Below are positions 2,755 through 43,788 of a DNA stretch of 43,788 nucleotides, one piece after another. Location: assembly GCA_017857245.1 (NCBI GenBank), contig JAFMDO010000005.1:1-43788 (forward strand), given 5' to 3'. Position 1 is the stretch's first letter; each line of letters starts with the position of its first letter. The translations under genes and the position numbers were made by a program. Under the pieces are notes generated by a model. It was not told where the DNA came from and ran no database searches. It worked only from the letters and a program-made list of their open reading frames with translations. This DNA is from Pontimonas sp. (lineage in GTDB: Bacteria > Actinomycetota > Actinomycetes > Actinomycetales > Microbacteriaceae).

Positions 2755-5700
2755 ATCGCTAACTCTCGCATTCGTGCGTCAGGGGCGCCAAACCGGTGCG
2801 CCGTGAGCGACACAGCTTGTTCCTTGAGGAAGGGAAGTATCTCTACCCGGCCACTCTCGGTCACTTCGTCACCATAAATGGAAACTTCGGGGGCTCCATC
2901 AAACGCCACGGCTAACGCATCGACGCGGCCGCCCAGCAACCGAACCCGCTCCGGCAAATGTGTGTTTACCCTCGCTACGAAAGCTCTTTCGGTTTCCACA
3001 ACCACGGAACCCAGGCTCCCTAAATGCTCCGGAGCTTTACCCAGTAGGAGCACGATCGACTCTGGTAGCGGGTCGGTACTTGACACATTGATTCGCGCTC
3101 CTGCGCGAAGCCCCGCAATAAGAACCCGCATCGTTTCTACCAGGGGAACAAACCCAGCAACCCTCACCGTCACCTCGTGCGGGTGGTACCGGAAGACGTT
3201 GCGCTCTACCCCAAGCCCGCTGGGATCCTGAGACACACCGTATATTTCTTCCCACGCAAGGGTGTCGCTAGCGAGTGCGCGAGCGATGAAGGACGCCCCC
3301 TCGTCCTCACTGCTGAGTGATGCAAGCTCGGCGAGATAGGGGTCGGTCCTGTGAGATCCCACCACAGCAGTTGCTGGGGTTCGCCGCCACGAACCCAACC
3401 CAAAGAGATAGTTGGGCCCGCCAGCCTTGGAACCCGCGCCGACGCTGGAGCGTTTCCAACCGCCAAAGGGCTGACGTTGAACAATCGCCCCCGTGATCCC
3501 ACGGTTGACATAACAGTTTCCCGCCTGCACGCGGGCCAGCCAGTGCTCAACCTCTCGGGGGTCGAGGGAATGAATCCCCGCGGTAAGGCCAAAATCGGTG
3601 CCGTTTTGTAGCGCGATTGCTTCATCCAGCGTCCTTGCTGTCATGATGGCAAGCACAGGACCGAAGTATTCGGTCCTGTGGAATTTACTACCCGCCTTGA
3701 CCCCTGTTCTGACTCCCGGCGACCACAGTCGACCTGATTCGTCTAATTGCCGAGGCTCAAGAATCCAGCTTTCGCCCCGACCAAGCTCTGTTAGTCCCGA
3801 GCGAAGCTTCCCGCCGGGTGCTTCAATCACCGGTCCCATCATGGCTTCTGGGTCATCGGGGTACCCCACTCTTAGCGTGGTCACCGCATCCACGAGCTGC
3901 CTGCGGAAGCGCTCCGATTTAGCGACGGACCCCACAAGGATGAGAATGCTCGCCGCGGAGCATTTCTGACCGGCGTGCCCAAAGGCGCTCTTCACTGCGT
4001 CGGCCACCGCTAGATCAAAGTCAGCACTGGGAGTCACGATCAAAGCATTCTTGCCGCTGGTTTCTGCCAACAACGGCAACTCTGCACGCCAGGACCGGAA
4101 CAACCGGGCTGTTTCAAATGCGCCGGTGAGAATCAGCCGATCCACGCCGGGGTGTGAAATCAGACCGTGACCGATCTGGCCCTCTTCAATATCGATAAGT
4201 TGCAACACATTCTTGGGAACACCGGCTGCCCACAGCGCCTCTGCAATAAGGGCACCGCATCGCCGGACCTGCGGAGCTGGCTTGATCGCCACCGCACTTC
4301 CCGCCGCGAGCGCCGCTAAGACCGATCCCGCAGGAATGGCGACGGGGAAGTTCCACGGCGGTGTCACGAGAGTGAATTGTGCGGGCTGGAATCGGGCACC
4401 ATCCACGGTCTCAAGTTCCAGAGCGGAATGGGCGTAGTACCTGGCAAAGTCAACAGCCTCGCTGACCTCAGGGTCACCCTCCAGCAGAGTTTTCCCCGCT
4501 TCTTGCATCATCACCGCAAGAAATTCACCCCGCCGTTTGTTCAGCTGTTCTGCCGCAGCCAGCAGAATGATCGCCCGCTCTCCTGCTGGTTTCTTCCCCC
4601 ACAGAGCACCGGCTTTACGCCCCCGCGCCACAAGGTCATCCACGACTATTCCACCCTTGATGGGTCCGAGGGATTCCGGAATTGCTGCTTTGCCCAACGA
4701 GTCCAGACCCAGCTTTTTGCCCCGCGCGGACGACGCCAATTTCCTGACTTCCCTTGCCCACCCGCGGTTTGCCGCCAAAGAAGGGTCGGTGTCAGGTTCG
4801 TTGTGAAAAACATCACCCACGTGCACTCCTGAGGGCTGGAAGTCACCTTGGTTTTGAACTCGGTGGTACTTCGGCGCGTTGGCGGTGAGCGCTTTCAGAG
4901 AAGAACGAAACCGCGCCTCCTCGCGCGCAAACAGCTCTGCGTTGTCGTGGAGATCAAATACCGCGGACATAAAGTTCTCGGGGCTCGCGTTCTCATCCAA
5001 CCGGCGGACCAAATACCCAACGGCCGCATCAAATTCTTTGGGGTGCACGACGGGGGTGTAGAGAACCAGTTGGCCGACCGTCTCGCGGACCGCATCAGCC
5101 TGATGGGGTGCCATACCGATCAACATTTCGAAGTCGACACCTTCCAGAGACCCTCGGCCCTTAGCCATCAGGTAGGCGAGGGCAACGTCAAAAAGGTTGT
5201 GGCCAGCGACCCCGATGCGGACAGCCTTCGTTCGTGCCGTGGTGAGGGAGTATTCCAGCACCCGCTTGTAGTTTGTGTCACTTTCCTGCTTTGAGGGCAA
5301 CACTGCCAGAGGCCAGTCGTGAACCGCTCCATCCACTTCTTCCATTTGAAGGTTCGCGCCCTTCACCACACGCACCTTCACACAGGCGCCACCCTTGCTC
5401 ACCCTGTCACTGGCAAAAGCCTGGATGCGCTTCATCGCATCCAGGGCTTCGGGCAAATAGGCCTGGAGAACGATGCCGCCCGTGTAGTTCTTCAGTGACG
5501 CATTGCTATAGACGCCCTCAAAGACCTCGATGGTCATATCGAGGTCTTTGAACTCCTCCATGTCGAGGTTAATAAAAGTGGGTGGTGTCGTAGCGGCTGC
5601 CTGCTGGAACAGAGGAATAAGGCGCTTGACTACTCGTTCTACCGTCTCGTCAAACGCCCACATCGATAGCTGGCTAGAAAGGGAGGAAACCTTCACGGAA

Positions 5701-17667: not shown

Positions 17668-19825
17668 CCACGAACACCGAGGACAACGCCATGGCCAATC
17701 CAGCCAGCAAGGGATTCAATAGACCCGCCATTGCCAGGGGAATTGCCGCGACGTTGTAGGCAAAAGCCCAAAAAAGATTCGCCTGGATGGTGCGGAGGGT
17801 GCGCCTGGATAGTCGGATTCCATCGGACACCGCGAGAATATCGCCTTGGACAATAGTGATGTCCCCAGCCGTCATCGCCGCGTCGCTGCCGCTACCCATC
17901 GCAATCCCGACATCGGCGGTGGCTAGACCGGGAGCGTCATTGATCCCATCTCCGACCATCGCAACCGTGTGGCCTTGCGATTGCAGCTCGGTAATGAGGG
18001 TGGCTTTACCCTCGGGTGTCATCGCGCTAAAGACTCGGTCAACCCCCACCGCTTTGGCAACGTGTTGAGCAACCACATCGTGATCGCCGCTGGCCAAAAT
18101 GGGTGTCAGCCCCAGGGCGGTGAGCTCTTGGATAGCGCGGGCGCTGGTGGCGCGAAGGGTGTCAGAGAGAGCAATTGCTCCCACAGCAGAATCCCCCCGC
18201 GTAATCACGACCACCGTGGAACCGGCCAGGCGTTGCTGATCAAGAGCGGACTGCAGAGGGTGGTCAGTGGTGATGTCACGCTCGTGCACCCACTCGGGGG
18301 TTCCCGCAGACACCGACACCCCGTCCTGTTGCCCCTCAACCCCCAACCCAATTCGCGCAACAAAATTGGTAATCGCTCGTTCGGTTGACTCGCGCTCCGT
18401 TGCGTGGGCGACTATCGCCCGGCCAATCGGATGCTCTGATCCTCGCTCGAGCGACAGGGCCAGGTCCAGAACGTCGCTCTCGCTGGCTCCTTCAGCGCTC
18501 ATGACCGCACTAACCTGCATAGCCCCTGTCGTCAGGGTTCCCGTCTTATCCACAATGATCGTGTCCAGCGAACGACTTTTCTCGATGACTTCGGGTCCAC
18601 GAATTAGGAGTCCTAGTTGAGCGCCTCTGCCTGTTCCCACAAGAAGGGCGGTGGGGGTGGCTAAGCCCAAAGCACAGGGACACGCAATGATCACGGTTGC
18701 CACTGCCGCTTGGAAAGCAAAGTCTGCTGAAGCACCTGCGAGAAGCCATCCCGCAAGCGTGAGAAGGGACAAGACAATAACGATGGGCACAAAGACAGAG
18801 GACACTCGGTCTGCGAGCCTTTGGCTGGCCGACTTCCCCTGCTGCGCAGCCTCGACCAGCGATGCCATTCGGGCTAATTCCGTTTCGGCGCCAACCCTGG
18901 TGGCCTGCATTCGCAAGAATCCGGTCACGTTGATGGTTCCACCCCAGACCGTGTCACCGACCACAACATCACGCGGTACGGATTCACCCGTCATCATCGA
19001 GGTGTCAATGGCGGCCGATCCTTCGAGGACTTCACCATCCGTGGGAATGCGCTCTCCCGGTCGCACCACCAAGTGATCTGAGACCCTCACCAAGGCGATA
19101 GGAACAACTTTTTCCACCCCGTCGCGAAGAACCGTGGCCTCCGCGGCGCCCGACTCTAACAGGGCTCTCAACGCTGCTCCTGCTTCGCGCTTGGCGCGGT
19201 TTTCAAGATATCGCCCCATCAACATAAAGGTCGTAAGGGCAGCTGCGACCTCCAGATATATCTCGGCCCCGGCTTGGTCGTGTGTGCCAATGAGTGTCAG
19301 TGTCATCGTCATGCCCAGTTCACCAGCTCCGCCAAAGAACAGTGCATAGAGCGACCACCCAGTGGCGGCCGTAATCCCGAGCGAAATAAGCGTGTCCATG
19401 GTGACGACACCGTGCCGGAGGTTGAGGCCAGCCGCCTTATGGAAGGGCCACGCCCCCCAGGTCGCAATAGGCAGAGCCAAGACGGTCACGACCCACTGCC
19501 ACCCAATAAATTGCAGAGCGGGAATCATCGACACGACCATCAGGGGCACGCTTACGAGCGCGGAAACCACAAGTCGCGTGACCAACGGCGAGTGCCCTTC
19601 TGCACTACTGGGCCGATCGCCATGCTCACTAGCTTCATAGCCGGTGGACTGAACCACCTGAATGAGCGCCTCGAGGGAAGAAGAATCACTCAGAATAGTG
19701 GCGCGTTCCGTTGCATAGTTGACGCTTGCCTCAGCGCCTTCGACCTTGTTGAGCGCTTTCTCAATCCGCGTGGCGCAGGAAGCGCAGGTCATTCCCTCGA
19801 TATCAAGCTGGATGACAGTGCTCAC
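17621..19825 (-). CDS. copA: Copper-exporting P1B-type ATPase
   Basis: A 734-residue heavy-metal P-type ATPase pumping Cu(I) out of the cytosol. Seen: one N-terminal HMA domain with GMTCASC (Cys14, Cys17), the actuator TGES near 279, the membrane metal site CPC at 382-384, phosphorylation motif DKTGTLT with Asp426, nucleotide-binding SEHPIGRAI near 462 and MVGDGINDAP near 620, and eight predicted helices. Late helices carry YNVAAIPLA and MALSSVFVVSNSLR, the Cu(I)-specific YN and MxxSS signatures. The GTG start overlaps the copZ stop as GTGA. Only one HMA domain is present, so CopZ likely delivers copper. Confidence 0.95.
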   Translation of the reverse strand: MSTVIQLDIEGMTCASCATRIEKALNKVEGAEASVNYATERATILSDSSSLEALIQVVQSTGYEASEHGDRPSSAEGHSPLVTRLVVSALVSVPLMVVSMIPALQFIGWQWVVTVLALPIATWGAWPFHKAAGLNLRHGVVTMDTLISLGITAATGWSLYALFFGGAGELGMTMTLTLIGTHDQAGAEIYLEVAAALTTFMLMGRYLENRAKREAGAALRALLESGAAEATVLRDGVEKVVPIALVRVSDHLVVRPGERIPTDGEVLEGSAAIDTSMMTGESVPRDVVVGDTVWGGTINVTGFLRMQATRVGAETELARMASLVEAAQQGKSASQRLADRVSSVFVPIVIVLSLLTLAGWLLAGASADFAFQAAVATVIIACPCALGLATPTALLVGTGRGAQLGLLIRGPEVIEKSRSLDTIIVDKTGTLTTGAMQVSAVMSAEGASESDVLDLALSLERGSEHPIGRAIVAHATERESTERAITNFVARIGLGVEGQQDGVSVSAGTPEWVHERDITTDHPLQSALDQQRLAGSTVVVITRGDSAVGAIALSDTLRATSARAIQELTALGLTPILASGDHDVVAQHVAKAVGVDRVFSAMTPEGKATLITELQSQGHTVAMVGDGINDAPGLATADVGIAMGSGSDAAMTAGDITIVQGDILAVSDGIRLSRRTLRTIQANLFWAFAYNVAAIPLAMAGLLNPLLAGLAMALSSVFVVSNSLRLRRFRPTTQ

Positions 19826-20052
19826 AGCCCAGAAATCTCCCCCACAGTTTCATACCCAGCATCGCGGACAGCCTGGCGCAAACTATCAGCACTAATCTCG
19901 GCAGTGGCGTCAACGGTCACCGTGGCGGGCCCGGTTGTATCGAGGGTGATGGCGACATCAGTTACTTCAGCAAGCGCACCAACTTCCTTTGTGACAGCTT
20001 GCACGCAGTGATCGCAGGTCATTCCCACCACTTCAAGGGTGTATTTCGACAC
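19822..20052 (-). CDS. copZ: Copper chaperone, HMA-domain protein
   Basis: A 76-residue ferredoxin-like HMA protein that carries Cu(I) to CopA. Seen: VVGMTCDHC near the start with the two copper-binding cysteines (about residues 12 and 15), then VTDVAITLDT and a C-terminal DAGYETVGE, covering one complete domain. The GTG at 20052 is chosen because AGGAG lies seven to eight bases upstream and the domain starts right there; longer readings would run into the neighbouring promoter. It is the first gene of copZ-copA. An inverted repeat 35 bp upstream may be the operator of a copper sensor, none of which is encoded nearby. Confidence 0.9.
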   Translation of the reverse strand: MSKYTLEVVGMTCDHCVQAVTKEVGALAEVTDVAITLDTTGPATVTVDATAEISADSLRQAVRDAGYETVGEISGL

Positions 20053-41287: not shown

Positions 41288-41875
41288 TCAATCGTGAAGG
41301 CTGGTGTCGCTGGGGCCCCTGGACCACGATGTGAAAGTCACCCTCAGGCCAGCCCGTGTAGGGGCTGCGACAAATGGCCCTGCTTCACTGGCCACGCCCT
41401 CTGGCCAGTGGCAGAGCCGAACAAGTCGCCAAGGTTCATCATCAACCCGAGCCCGAATCGTAATGGCATTGCCGCTTCGACTGGCTCGAATAGTGATTAG
41501 TCGACCCGCCCACTCCGCAACCGGCGCCAAAGACCAATCCGAAAAACCTTGGGTCACCACCGCGCCTAATTGCAGGAGGCCATCCACGCTTTCGACTCCC
41601 GCCTTAATCCAAGTCTTCTGATCAATCCGCACGAAAAGCCCCGCTTGGTCGAACTGGGCAGTGAAGGAACCCTCAAACGCGACCTCCATCGCTTCCTCGA
41701 CCGCTAAGTCGACCAGCAACGCGTGTTCGCTGTCACGGGTGAACCCGGAAGAGGTTTCCCGCCACGCATCACTCTGGTTGTGGGCCTCTACGACCAGGCC
41801 CCCCTCGGTTTCTTGGGAAGACACCGGCGGGTGTGACCAGGCGCCCTGTGACCAGACAATCTGTTGGGAATCCAT
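41288..41875 (-). CDS. DUF1349-like (YesU-type) beta-sandwich protein
   Basis: A 195-residue soluble protein matching the DUF1349 concanavalin-like family, often annotated as regulation of enolase 1 or YesU. Seen: AWSHPPVSSQETEGGLVVEA near the start, FDQAGLFVRIDQKTWIKAG near 94-112, the conserved SDWSL near 132, and a late AAPTRAGLRVTF near 170. The fold is typical of carbohydrate-binding or accessory hydrolase domains; no catalytic function is certain. No signal peptide. A TAGTCT -10 box six bases before the ATG supports this start. Confidence 0.82.
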   Translation of the reverse strand: MDSQQIVWSQGAWSHPPVSSQETEGGLVVEAHNQSDAWRETSSGFTRDSEHALLVDLAVEEAMEVAFEGSFTAQFDQAGLFVRIDQKTWIKAGVESVDGLLQLGAVVTQGFSDWSLAPVAEWAGRLITIRASRSGNAITIRARVDDEPWRLVRLCHWPEGVASEAGPFVAAPTRAGLRVTFTSWSRGPSDTSLHD

Positions 41876-41881
41876 GTCTTC

Positions 41882-41887
41882 AGACTA
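41882..41887 (-). promoter_or_regulatory. -10 element of a probable leaderless DUF1349 promoter
   Basis: On the minus strand TAGTCT, six bases (GAAGAC), then ATG at 41875. Confidence 0.6.
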
Positions 41888-41993
41888 GCGAGTGACCGCT
41901 GTTGCTAGGTTTCTGGGATGGACCAGTTCGACTTCATCGCTGGTAGCTACAACGCCCATCAGAATTGAAAGAATGGCTGCTAGATCAGTGGGA

Positions 41994-41999
41994 TAGTGT
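41994..41999 (+). promoter_or_regulatory. -10 element of a probable leaderless promoter for the seven-helix protein
   Basis: TAGTGT, six bases (GTTTCT), then ATG at 42006. Confidence 0.6.
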
Positions 42000-42005
42000 G
42001 TTTCT

Positions 42006-42947
42006 ATGGGATCCAGAAGCTGGCGGGCTCCTAGCAAGGTTTTGAGCCACCGTGGCCTGAATCTCATGGCTCTTGCGTGCCTAGTCGGTAGCGCGGTGGC
42101 GTTGGGCCTCTATTTTGCGGACCCGCGCGAATTGCTCGGAGTGCCGGTGTGGGAAAAACCCCTGAAATTCCTGATTTCAGGAGGCCTCTACTCAGCAACA
42201 TTTTCGTGGCTTTACTCCTTTGTCGATAAGGGTAAAAAGTTCGCTCATCTCATGGGAAACCTGATAGCGATGCTGTTGGTGGTTGAGATAGTCGTTATCG
42301 CGGGACTTGGAGCATCTGGCACGACAAGCCATTTCAATGTGTCGACACCTTTTCATATCGCTATCTGGTCCGTGATGGCCACAGCCATCACGGGGGTGTG
42401 GGTATCCACCTTCTTGCTAGGGGCAACGCTGTGGACCGCTCCCAGAATGGCCTCGGAGCTTCGACTTGCTGTTCGCTGGGCTCTAGGGCTTGGCTTGGCT
42501 GGTATGGGAATCGCCTTCACCATGACGCCACCACAACCTCAGCAGGTCCTCCCCGAAAACTGGCAAGGAATCGCAGGGGCCCACACCGTGGGCGCAGCCG
42601 ATGGTGGTCCTGGCATACCCTTTCTTGGCTGGTCAAGCGTGTCAGGCGATCTTCGTGTCTCTCACTTCTTCGGATTGCATGCCTTACAGGTTTTGCCGCT
42701 GCTGGCACTCGTCTTGTCAGCACTAATTGTCAACTACGCCGCAAGGGTTGCAATCCTCCGGGGCTTCGCCGTCGGCTATGGCATGCTCATCGTGATCACT
42801 TATGTTCAGGCTCTCTCTGGAGAGAGCCTGACGAACCCCTCAACACTCACTCTTGCGGCAACCGCAACGATGGTAGCCCTTTCGCTTCTTATCGGTGGCT
42901 GGACCTTCATAAGGGTGAGGAAATCGGAAGGGGCAATAGCTCCTTGA
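42006..42947 (+). CDS. Conserved seven-helix membrane protein, function unknown
   Basis: A 313-residue polytopic protein. Helices are seen near 18-36, 55-71, 84-102, 118-140, 155-171, 229-248 and 256-300. Conserved-looking motifs are VWEKPLKFLISGGLYS near 48 (charged residues at a helix start), GAHTVGAADGGPGIPF near 193 with GWSSVSGDLRVSHFFGLHALQ near 207 (two histidines beside hydrophobic helices). I recognise these stretches from uncharacterised actinobacterial membrane proteins but know of no established function; the histidines suggest metal or haem binding as a possibility only. Leaderless-type promoter. Confidence 0.8.
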   Translation: MGSRSWRAPSKVLSHRGLNLMALACLVGSAVALGLYFADPRELLGVPVWEKPLKFLISGGLYSATFSWLYSFVDKGKKFAHLMGNLIAMLLVVEIVVIAGLGASGTTSHFNVSTPFHIAIWSVMATAITGVWVSTFLLGATLWTAPRMASELRLAVRWALGLGLAGMGIAFTMTPPQPQQVLPENWQGIAGAHTVGAADGGPGIPFLGWSSVSGDLRVSHFFGLHALQVLPLLALVLSALIVNYAARVAILRGFAVGYGMLIVITYVQALSGESLTNPSTLTLAATATMVALSLLIGGWTFIRVRKSEGAIAP

Positions 42948-42966
42948 GCGTAGTTCGATAGTGCTT

Positions 42967-42997
42967 GTGGAGCCGCCGCAGCTCACAACTTTTCTAC
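42967..42997 (+). repeat. Copy 1 of a 31-nt direct repeat
   Basis: Pattern GTGGAGC-N6-AGCTCACAAC-N4-CTAC, starting 20 bp after the seven-helix gene stop. The constant parts match copy 2 at 43318 exactly; GTGGAGC and GCTCAC can pair to form a small stem. Confidence 0.7.
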
Positions 42998-43047
42998 ATC
43001 GTCTTGTTTGAGACCCTGTTTTTCGAAATCACAACTATGAAACATTG

Positions 43048-43075
43048 TTGACATCCGGCTATTGCGCCATACCGT
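43048..43075 (+). promoter_or_regulatory. Promoter of the small membrane gene
   Basis: TTGACA at 43048-43053, 16-nt spacer, TACCGT at 43070-43075: the best -35/-10 pair in the window and unusual here in having a consensus -35. It would give a leader of about 35 nt before the ATG at 43119. Confidence 0.55.
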
Positions 43076-43118
43076 CTTTAATCAGAGGGGATGCTTTGTC
43101 CACCGACATACTGGACGC

Positions 43119-43313
43119 ATGTTGTGGTGGATCGCAATGGTTGTAATCGGCGTGTGGATGGCCGTAAGTGGCTTCGCCAAATCAAGTGCGACACCGTTCA
43201 TTTTTCTTGTGGCCAGAGCCCAATTGCTGTGGAAATCCCAAGCACACAGCTTCTTGGGTGTCTCAGGAGTAGGAGTTGCTTTAGTCGGAGCTTTTCTCCT
43301 GATTAGTAAATGA
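43119..43313 (+). CDS. Small two-helix membrane protein between direct repeats
   Basis: A 64-residue protein with two hydrophobic helices (MLWWIAMVVIGVWMAVSGF, and SGVGVALVGAFLLISK at the end) separated by a polar loop with ARAQLLWKSQAHS. Unknown function. The ATG at 43119 is chosen because the hydrophobic helix begins there; a TTG at 43062 would add 19 polar residues and lies inside the promoter. A near-consensus promoter precedes it, and 31-nt repeats flank it on both sides. Overlapping frames exist but lack hydrophobic or codon signals. Confidence 0.5.
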   Translation: MLWWIAMVVIGVWMAVSGFAKSSATPFIFLVARAQLLWKSQAHSFLGVSGVGVALVGAFLLISK

Positions 43314-43317
43314 GTTC

Positions 43318-43348
43318 GTGGAGCGTAGATAGCTCACAACACCTCTAC
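43318..43348 (+). repeat. Copy 2 of a 31-nt direct repeat
   Basis: Same pattern as at 42967: GTGGAGC, six variable bases, AGCTCACAAC, four variable bases, CTAC. It starts 5 bp after the small membrane gene stop and runs into a terminator hairpin. Both copies follow a stop codon, 351 bp apart. Confidence 0.7.
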
Positions 43349-43370
43349 CTCCCCCTTTTTAGGGGGAGGT
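43347..43370 (+). terminator. Strong hairpin after the small membrane gene
   Basis: A perfect 10-bp stem (ACCTCCCCCT with AGGGGGAGGT) around a TTTT loop, followed by TTC only. The stem is strong but the T tract is short, so it may act as a terminator or mRNA end protector. Confidence 0.6.
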
Positions 43371-43433
43371 TTCACAGAATTACAAGTAAAAACCACGATT
43401 ATTTTATACTTTTGCGAAAGTTGGACCTTTCCT

Positions 43434-43562
43434 ATGCGGCGCCCAAAGGACATCCATACGCCTGCAATAGAACGAAATTCTCACCCAATGAACCCACTAC
43501 CGAAGTTTGCAAAGGTCTGGCTGGGTCTAGTTGCGTGGACTATTCTTGTGGCCCTGACTTAA
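43434..43562 (+). CDS. Possible small ORF in an AT-rich stretch
   Basis: A 42-codon frame: polar N-terminus MRRPKDIHTPAIERN and a short hydrophobic C-terminus (VWLGLVAWTILVALT). TATACT at 43405-43410 in the AT-rich DNA upstream is a plausible -10. Translation might instead start at an internal ATG at 43488. It overlaps the convergent gene by 23 bp. I cannot tell whether it is a real micro-protein. Confidence 0.3.
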   Translation: MRRPKDIHTPAIERNSHPMNPLPKFAKVWLGLVAWTILVALT

Positions 43563-43788
43563 TTGACCAAAAATCGAGAGCGTTCTTGAATGGTGTCTTC
43601 GGAGGATAGATCCATTCTGGCGCCCCTGCGGCAAGATCGTAACTCTTCATAAAACTCTCATACTCCCCGTAGAACTCATCCATGGTCATCCCAACGTGCT
43701 TCTTGAAGGACCCGTGCCATCCCAGGCGCCACGCATCCTCCAGGATGGAAACCATGGCAATCTCTGGCGAAGTGATGTGCATAAGATA
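43540..43788 (-). CDS. C-terminal part of an unrecognised protein, cut by the window edge
   Basis: The frame is open to the right edge and codes for at least 82 residues ending at TAG 43540. Visible: ILEDAWRLGWHGSFKKHVGM, TMDEFYGEYESFM and the C-terminus PEWIYPPKTPFKNALDFW. The W-x-F-x3-x-G-M-T-M-D-E-F-Y pattern recalls the C-terminal ends of zinc-peptidase-like secreted proteins, but this is too short for a safe assignment. The start lies outside the window, so ATG 43782 is probably internal. Confidence 0.5.
   Translation of the reverse strand, partial: YLMHITSPEIAMVSILEDAWRLGWHGSFKKHVGMTMDEFYGEYESFMKSYDLAAGAPEWIYPPKTPFKNALDFWSIKSGPQE

Follow-up and report, generated by a model that had tools for sequence, protein, structure and literature searches.

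The repeats near the right-hand end of the Pontimonas sp. window (the whole stretch of 43,788 nt analysed here) belong to an element of about 88 nt, hereafter E, which probably represents a decayed attL-like site. The array of mostly single genes separated by copies of E would then be an additive island docked at tRNA-Ala(TGC) and composed of integrase-less, CIME-like units, a reading to which we assign a probability of about 0.8. The locus seems to serve these bacteria as a site for exchanging genes. What is read directly from the sequences is the family of elements, the identity of its members with a tRNA end, the position of the arrays, a filled and an empty site, changed neighbours around one gene and an att plan shared with integrase-bearing elements.

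The repeat of the window and element E

The sequence-only reading had described a 31-nt repeat, GTGGAGC-N6-AGCTCACAAC-N4-CTAC, on either side of a small membrane gene. Two exact matches are present on the same strand, 351 bp apart (Table 1), and a third is absent from the window even when up to three mismatches are allowed. In the whole 1.28-Mb assembly, the pattern minus CTAC (up to two mismatches) returned the same two sites and one site with two mismatches (C18:18954), while the exact pattern had zero matches among the named genome contigs. That shuffled sequences gave zero matches is no fair comparison, the pattern having been taken from these very data. At offset 351 the best ungapped segment scores 18 (match +1, mismatch -1), a best score also reached in 2 of 40 Markov-simulated windows, and with a mismatch value of -1.5 the observed score of 11 is lower than the simulated mean of 13.45. 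Another pair in the real window scores 20, above the reported repeat; its two stretches (19760-20042) lie 230 bp apart and share GCAGGTCATTCCC-like sequence. Judged alone, the pair of 31-nt matches lies close to chance expectation for a sequence of the window's size. The repeat is real and becomes significant because it is contained in E, which is present in 9 of the 19 genus genomes, but as a unit it did not hold, being merely the best-matching piece of the longer element.

A loose pattern search in the 19 genus genomes gave 13 sites (three of them in the window's own genome, G000) against six in a reversed control, and therefore most of the loose sites are chance matches. Two of the sites, in G001 and G006, are similar to E1, the window copy farther from the tRNA, over about 85 nt, and the sequence preceding the relatives of the small gene in G007 and G009 is likewise E1-like over about 85 nt. 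A first profile, built on sequence only from six copies of E, detected 15 clear copies (E-value <= 4e-8) in the nine genomes; seven weak matches (E-value 0.012-0.17) were set aside, except the second G018 copy, which was used in the polarity test below. Further copies thus exist in the genome and its relatives; the opposite outcome, with no other copies and one arrangement fixed in all relatives, was looked for and did not occur. A second profile (R2), built from the 15 clear copies, has strong matches in the window at E1 and E2 only. Across 299 family genomes it matched in five, all of this genus and none outside it; that search had stricter filters and found five of the seven genus members sampled (G000, G001, G003, G006, G007, G009, G016), so that the negative outside the genus holds for strong copies only. 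One G001 copy used as query against phages and plasmids gave only short weak matches (best E-values 4 and 0.3), and two exact patterns gave zero matches against viral contigs.

Table 1. Positions of the array features in the window.
Feature	Position	Strand	Remarks
313-aa gene left of E1	42006..42947	+	earlier unit or resident gene
E1, attachment-site-like, farther from tRNA	42965..43051	+	R2 66.6 bits, E-value 4e-20
First 31-nt repeat, within E1	42967..42997	+	
E1 core	42968-42977		TGGAGCCGCC, 7/10 identical to tRNA-Ala 3' end
E1 arm	43029-43037		only one recognisable
Small gene carried by unit	43062..43313	+	ORF list; 83 aa from TTG 43062 or 64 aa from ATG 43119
E2, attachment-site-like, nearer tRNA	43316..43403	+	R2 58.2 bits, E-value 2e-17
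Second 31-nt repeat, within E2	43318..43348	+	
E2 core	43319-43328		TGGAGCGTAG, 9/10 identical to tRNA-Ala 3' end
E2 arm	43380-43388		one clear
Next unit's gene, 3' end	43540..43788	-	ORF list

Well-kept copies of E start with TGGAGCCTAG, often preceded by TTCG or TTG, and their first 10-13 nt reproduce exactly, on the other strand, the 3' end of the tRNA-Ala(TGC) gene nearby. In 10 of the 15 copies, 9 or all 10 positions of this core agree with the tRNA end; the low score of the G007 core (2/10) is due to a one-base shift. About 50 nt after the core are common to the copies, with a mean pairwise identity of 0.60. In E2 a CCTCCCCC/GGGGGAGG hairpin takes the place of the middle part. The arm-type repeat TTACAACTA follows at about 61-63 nt from the core (up to two mismatches in 14/15 copies) and is doubled at 13-bp spacing in six copies. 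In E units the arms are confined to one end; a second pair on the integrase side was not seen. We rejected the idea that the E body is a decayed tRNA half, as p < 0.05 was obtained in only 3 of the 15 copies, and dropped a protein-coding reading of the repeat: the WSxxSSQ-like frame that several copies show is interrupted by stops in the G006 copy. E1 and E2 are identical at only 51 of 88 positions and E1 is closer to a G001 copy (73%), which disfavours a tandem duplication within the window. The duplicated 3' element proposed from the sequence alone is not the mechanism that we favour.

Outside the copies of E, the only place in the genus where paired arms were found is G014:C14:155-176 (L195, minus strand). 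There, paired E-type arms TACAACTAAAAATTACAAC and a neighbouring TCTGATTTTCGAAA occur without a recognisable tRNA-Ala core, at a distance of a few hundred bases from a pair of small genes, which we take to resemble an antitoxin/PIN-toxin pair; the site may be an attachment site with another core.

Arrays beside tRNA-Ala(TGC)

Copies of E are direct repeats between mostly single genes, in an array that ends at tRNA-Ala. Both tRNA-Ala(TGC) and E are on one contig in five genomes (G001, G002, G006, G007, G011), and in G000 they are joined through a 55-nt overlap between the window's contig end and contig C62. Read towards the tRNA, G000 has the 42006 gene, E1, the small gene, E2, a reverse gene and tRNA-Ala. 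The 42006 gene has no family in the Pfam scan and matches in 23 of 99 genomes, its own included; the reverse gene runs on to C62:1162, with the tRNA starting at C62:1351, and its C62 part has zero relatives in the other 18 genus genomes. The array of G001 consists of a 274-aa membrane-like gene, E, GNAT (reverse), E, MFS and tRNA-Ala, and that of G006 (contigs C120 and C91, put together on the part of the racemase gene that their translations have in common) of E, DUF1349, E, Asp/Glu racemase (reverse), E, a TipAS-domain gene and tRNA-Ala. Shorter arrays are found in G002 (a 106-aa gene, E, TipAS-domain gene, tRNA-Ala), G011 (E, a reverse 364-aa gene, tRNA-Ala) and G007 (a reverse 250-aa gene, E, small gene, tRNA-Ala). 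Contig ends break two arrays before the tRNA, namely those of G009 (unjoined C43 and C2: E, a reverse 483-aa gene, E, small gene, E ... reverse gene, tRNA-Ala) and G018 (unjoined C52 and C11: E, multicopper oxidase, weak E ... tRNA-Ala). Cargo names derive from Pfam, the TipAS protein having been scanned in G002 and the racemase as a contig-cut part.

Beyond tRNA-Ala, where the contig continues, tRNA-Ile, a DUF3566-like gene and a gyrA-like gene are found; gyrA, DUF3566 and lipoprotein-like are gene names that we presume from the look of the sequences. By their neighbouring genes, the strong copies of E mark one chromosomal region. The G017 copy stands apart, upstream of isochorismatase, an IS transposase (G017:C63) and tRNA-Ala (CGC). 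The 3' end of tRNA-Ala(TGC) was detected in 13 of the 19 genus genomes; it is without E alongside in G004, G005, G008, G014 and G017:C17 (flank of 0.7 kb in G017 and 2.2 kb in G014), and the remaining genomes have differing fillings beside it. Variable genes thus lie between repeats of a tRNA end, at a site that is empty or differently filled in relatives, as is characteristic of additive islands.

Units of E measure about 0.35-1.8 kb. From gene to next core the distance is 5, 5, 6, 7, 11, 16, 20 and 26 nt in 8 of 12 junctions and 53-188 nt in the other four. Successive cores of G001 share 12 and 13 nt, as direct repeats bounding both of its units. No site-specific recombinase was found among 11 scanned cargo genes (some of them contig-cut), no integration or transfer genes within the units, and no integrase in the E arrays examined. 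Core repeats of apparent att type at both unit ends, with no such genes between them, are the features by which a CIME would be recognised. Core identity to the tRNA end, listed from left to right with the tRNA at the right, is 9, 10 for G001; 7, 9, 9 for G006; 5, 9, 10 for G009; 7, 9 for G000; and 9, 9 for G018. Core decay increases with distance from the tRNA (exact permutation p 0.014, 4/288; 12 copies in five arrays, the weak second G018 copy among them).

The rightmost copies of five arrays (G001b, G009_94, G011, G002, G006c) are 73-83% alike, yet each is followed by a different gene, apart from TipAS, which G002 and G006 share. Either recent insertions with one att type or an exchange of genes to the right of a resident site could have led to this. 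G002 and G006 are sister species (98.8% for the gyrA-like protein) with TipAS proteins 94% identical; the DNA of this unit right of the arms is nearly identical between them, while the E bodies are 73% alike and the G002 copy lacks one 13-bp arm. This mismatch, together with the type of E1 in the window, indicates that exchange or deletion also takes place inside E and that E does not always stay with one gene.

Concerning the small gene, its product is hydrophobic (by eye), with no Pfam family for either start (83 or 64 aa), no NCBIfam or PHROG family for the 64-aa form and zero relatives in the named genomes searched. Its relatives in G007 (81%) and G009 (72%) are alignable with it together with the upstream stretch, and the neighbours on both sides differ among the three genomes. 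Cores are present on both ends of the unit in all three. On its 3' side, G007 reads TTTCG-TGGAGCCTAG-GAGAATCG, straight into tRNA-Ala (empty site), and G009 reads TTTCG-TGGAGCCTAG-TTGGATCC, into a further E (filled site); the window is like G009 in having a further E. Of the E copies that precede the small gene, those of G007 and G009 match each other best (84%), a type to which E1 of the window is not closest. The suggestion of an exchangeable cassette stands in a broad sense, with a small gene between differing neighbours in three genomes and G007 lacking the further repeat and gene. The best consensus promoter of the region, claimed for the same unit, was not recovered: sigma-70-type promoters in 41800-43788 number 0 (shuffle mean 1.6), and TTGACA at 43048 has no conserved counterpart where G007 and G009 align.

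More distant relatives of the small gene were observed at G000:C53:2045 (39%) and in G010:C6 (L044 1400-1680; 47%), the latter beginning about 25 nt after a tRNA-Arg(acg) gene. In addition, the window carries a DUF1349 gene (41288-41875, minus strand), whose G006 relative (43% identity) is an E-flanked unit. The profile scan recognised no E copy beside the window gene, which may consequently be an older unit with its sites worn away. The tRNA-adjacent unit ends in a similar hairpin, AAAACCCC..GGGGTTTTCT, in G000 (L115 1300-1350) and G009 (L119 180-228); it could be a terminator of the tRNA transcript, as if the inserted unit supplied one.

Integrase-bearing elements and the origin of the arrays

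A Pfam search for tyrosine recombinases had matches in all 19 genus genomes. Fifteen stretches around further matches were examined, of which G005:C65 is the one that starts with GTGGAGCCTAGTT. It is a fragmentary element of 4,350 bp that encodes a 418-aa integrase, a GNAT protein and a DUF4379 protein. Its GTAGCCTAT repeats are paired at 66/79 and a second time at 4307/4320, the integrase end; linkage to a tRNA is absent in its assembly. A 619-aa protein of this contig (L165 1172-3031) shows seven DUF4379 treble-clef stretches and matches PHROG endonuclease families. Four relatives of the C65 integrase (E-value <= 1e-30) were found in the 299 family genomes. The best one (35% identity) is in G185, a member of another genus, directly beside tRNA-Ala(TGC), and the gene order nearby is that of the E genomes (tRNA-Ile, DUF3566-like, gyrA-like). 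The other three adjoin tRNA-Tyr, tRNA-Ser and tRNA-Ser, and viral contigs gave only one partial match of 26%. The G185 element is complete, with 5,680 bp between copies of GTGGAGCCTAGGGGAATCGA, a 20-nt direct repeat of the tRNA end, and paired TTAAGCC repeats at 12-bp spacing at both ends.

E, C65 and G185 have a plan in common, namely a tRNA-end core followed after 60-75 nt by paired repeats of 12-13 bp. The arms are at 67/80 in E (G001b, core at 4), 66/79 in C65 (core at 2) and 74/86 in G185 (core at 1). Their letters differ (TTACAACTA in E, GTAGCCTAT in C65, TTAAGCC in G185), which would be expected of related integrases with different arm specificities. With its tRNA-end core and its arms at the distance seen in integrase-bearing elements, E looks like a site used by a tRNA-targeting tyrosine integrase. 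C65 and G185 have arm sites flanking the core on either side, an arrangement not found in E units. Separately, a tyrosine-recombinase frame with one stop (PF00589) was noticed near tRNA-Ser(cga) in G000:C38 (L168 749-1207), and this tRNA may also have carried an integrative element once.

In the explanation that we favour, E would be one half of an attachment site (attL-like) resulting from tyrosine-integrase insertion at the 3' end of tRNA-Ala(TGC). A unit would comprise a copy of the tRNA end as core, a spacer of about 60 nt, one or two 13-bp arm-type repeats and usually one gene, and would end at the next core or at the tRNA itself. Recombination by the integrase between a circular unit's core and the tRNA end would restore the tRNA and leave core, arm and gene behind; repeated insertions would extend the array on the tRNA side while older cores decay. 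If units were added successively on that side, the sites far from the tRNA would be the older and more decayed ones. Units without an integrase would be either non-autonomous, with an integrase acting in trans that most genomes have lost or would receive from outside, or what is left of larger elements after shrinkage, in the manner of CIMEs and additive genomic islands. We infer recombination by such an integrase, a function of the arms, mobility in trans and an order of insertion. Several observations speak against the favoured reading. The E arrays examined contained no integrase, and the one-contig genome G001 has Xer-like tyrosine recombinases only; the arm letters of E are not those of C65 or G185, paired arms are in the minority (6/15 copies) and the units lack a second arm pair. 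In addition, E does not always accompany the gene on its right, the G017 copy is near a different tRNA-Ala (CGC), C65 has no tRNA linked to it in its assembly, and the arrays of G009 and G018 are interrupted by contig ends. A narrower form of the favoured reading, in which a trans-acting integrase gathers single genes, each bearing a one-armed attachment site, in order at the tRNA-Ala end of a small-genome genus and that end plays the role of an integron's attI, is conceivable but rather doubtful.

A remnant version, which overlaps with the favoured reading, takes the array as the decayed trace of a few large tRNA-Ala elements, with no single-gene moves and with the genes between the scars being simply those that survived. 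The small genomes and decayed cores agree with it, as do the several genes carried by integrase-bearing elements at or fitting tRNA-Ala, the lack of a second arm pair in the units, and an E1 in the window that is not of the type preceding the small gene in G007 and G009. G001, moreover, lacks a helper integrase, its one contig having just two tyrosine recombinases, XerD over its cut-off and an XerC-like protein. Gene ends at 5-26 nt from the next core in 8 of 12 junctions would, however, be rare under random deletion, and the small gene of G007 and G009 has kept a similar E (84%) with both neighbours changed. We regard this version as a tentative possibility that falls somewhat short of even odds.

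Explanations without a tRNA-directed integrase fare far worse. An array of genes and attC sites, handled by an integron integrase on folded single-stranded sites, is very improbable. Like integron cassettes, the units are mostly single genes with direct repeats after them, in an array anchored at one site; a dyad is present at the start of E, and the E body of G002 and G006 differs along with the left neighbour. The anchor, though, is a tRNA gene whose end is copied by the start of E, IntI was not seen (G001 and G000 have two full-length recombinases each, all Xer-like, with IntI models far below cut-off), and hairpin covariation is not above shuffles. Core motifs of attC are RYYYAAC and GTTRRRY; any match to them was found in 4 of 15 copies and none in the attC arrangement. 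Hairpin potential around E2 (z -4.4 at 43306-43385, which includes the CCTCCCCC hairpin) and the 7-pair stem given by RNAalifold on six copies would suit a conserved RNA element or terminator at gene ends, such as a 3' UTR motif, riboswitch or attenuator. RNA structure of the repeat, raised by the sequence-only reading, was tested and not confirmed: E1 has no folding advantage over shuffles (z 0.93), covariation is scored unfavourably by RNAalifold (+0.36), base-pair counts over the 15 copies are at shuffle level, Rfam has no match up to E-value 10 and genes stand beside E in both orientations, leaving this explanation highly unlikely. Equally remote as the integron is a dispersed repeat of REP/MITE type without relation to the tRNA. 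E is indeed short, repeated, partly palindromic and in one orientation per array, but its strong copies are in one chromosomal region (G017 apart), unrelated loci are largely without copies and its start matches the adjacent tRNA end.

Relation to known islands and significance

A literature search, in which few subscription journals were covered, returned related systems and none naming this locus. In the parts of the papers considered here, additive flexible genomic islands at tRNA genes are described for Ca. Actinomarinales (PMC7771536), and for Ca. Methylopumilus an additive island whose markers are repeated copies of the final 20 bp of tRNA-Lys (PMC10872708). Both resemble our arrays as insertions at tRNA genes of small-genome bacteria that are marked by repeated copies of a tRNA end. 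As far as those parts go, tRNA copies alone are described there, unlike the 88-nt marker with arm-type repeats, the mostly one gene per unit and the matching integrase family and att plan reported here. CIMEs and accretion are defined in a review (PMC5704250), and work on Dehalococcoides (PMC3146451) reports tandem islands at ssrA with 20-bp repeats, 15 of them without integration modules. The E units are similar in being bounded by att-type repeats, free of integration genes and in tandem at one RNA gene. They differ in that a serine recombinase is described for Dehalococcoides, whereas here the sites appear to be of tyrosine-integrase type, with units of about 0.35-1.8 kb and often decayed cores. 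Tycheposons of Prochlorococcus, of 4-200 kbp according to the text of PMC10872708 used here, likewise bring cargo to tRNA genes and are linked to tyrosine recombinases, but E units do not reach 2 kb, and none was found to carry a recombinase.

The array therefore belongs to the known additive-island/CIME kind, from which it is set apart by its arm-bearing element and mostly single-gene units. Cassette-like gene gain at tRNA genes had already been described from tRNA repeats in other small-genome bacteria. Placed next to each other, the arm-bearing element, the integrase family and the complete element docked at this tRNA make it testable whether one integrase would mobilise single-gene units in trans. 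Apart from this, individual units can be delimited with the 88-nt profile, and their age could be ranked by the decay of their tRNA copies, provided that the polarity holds.
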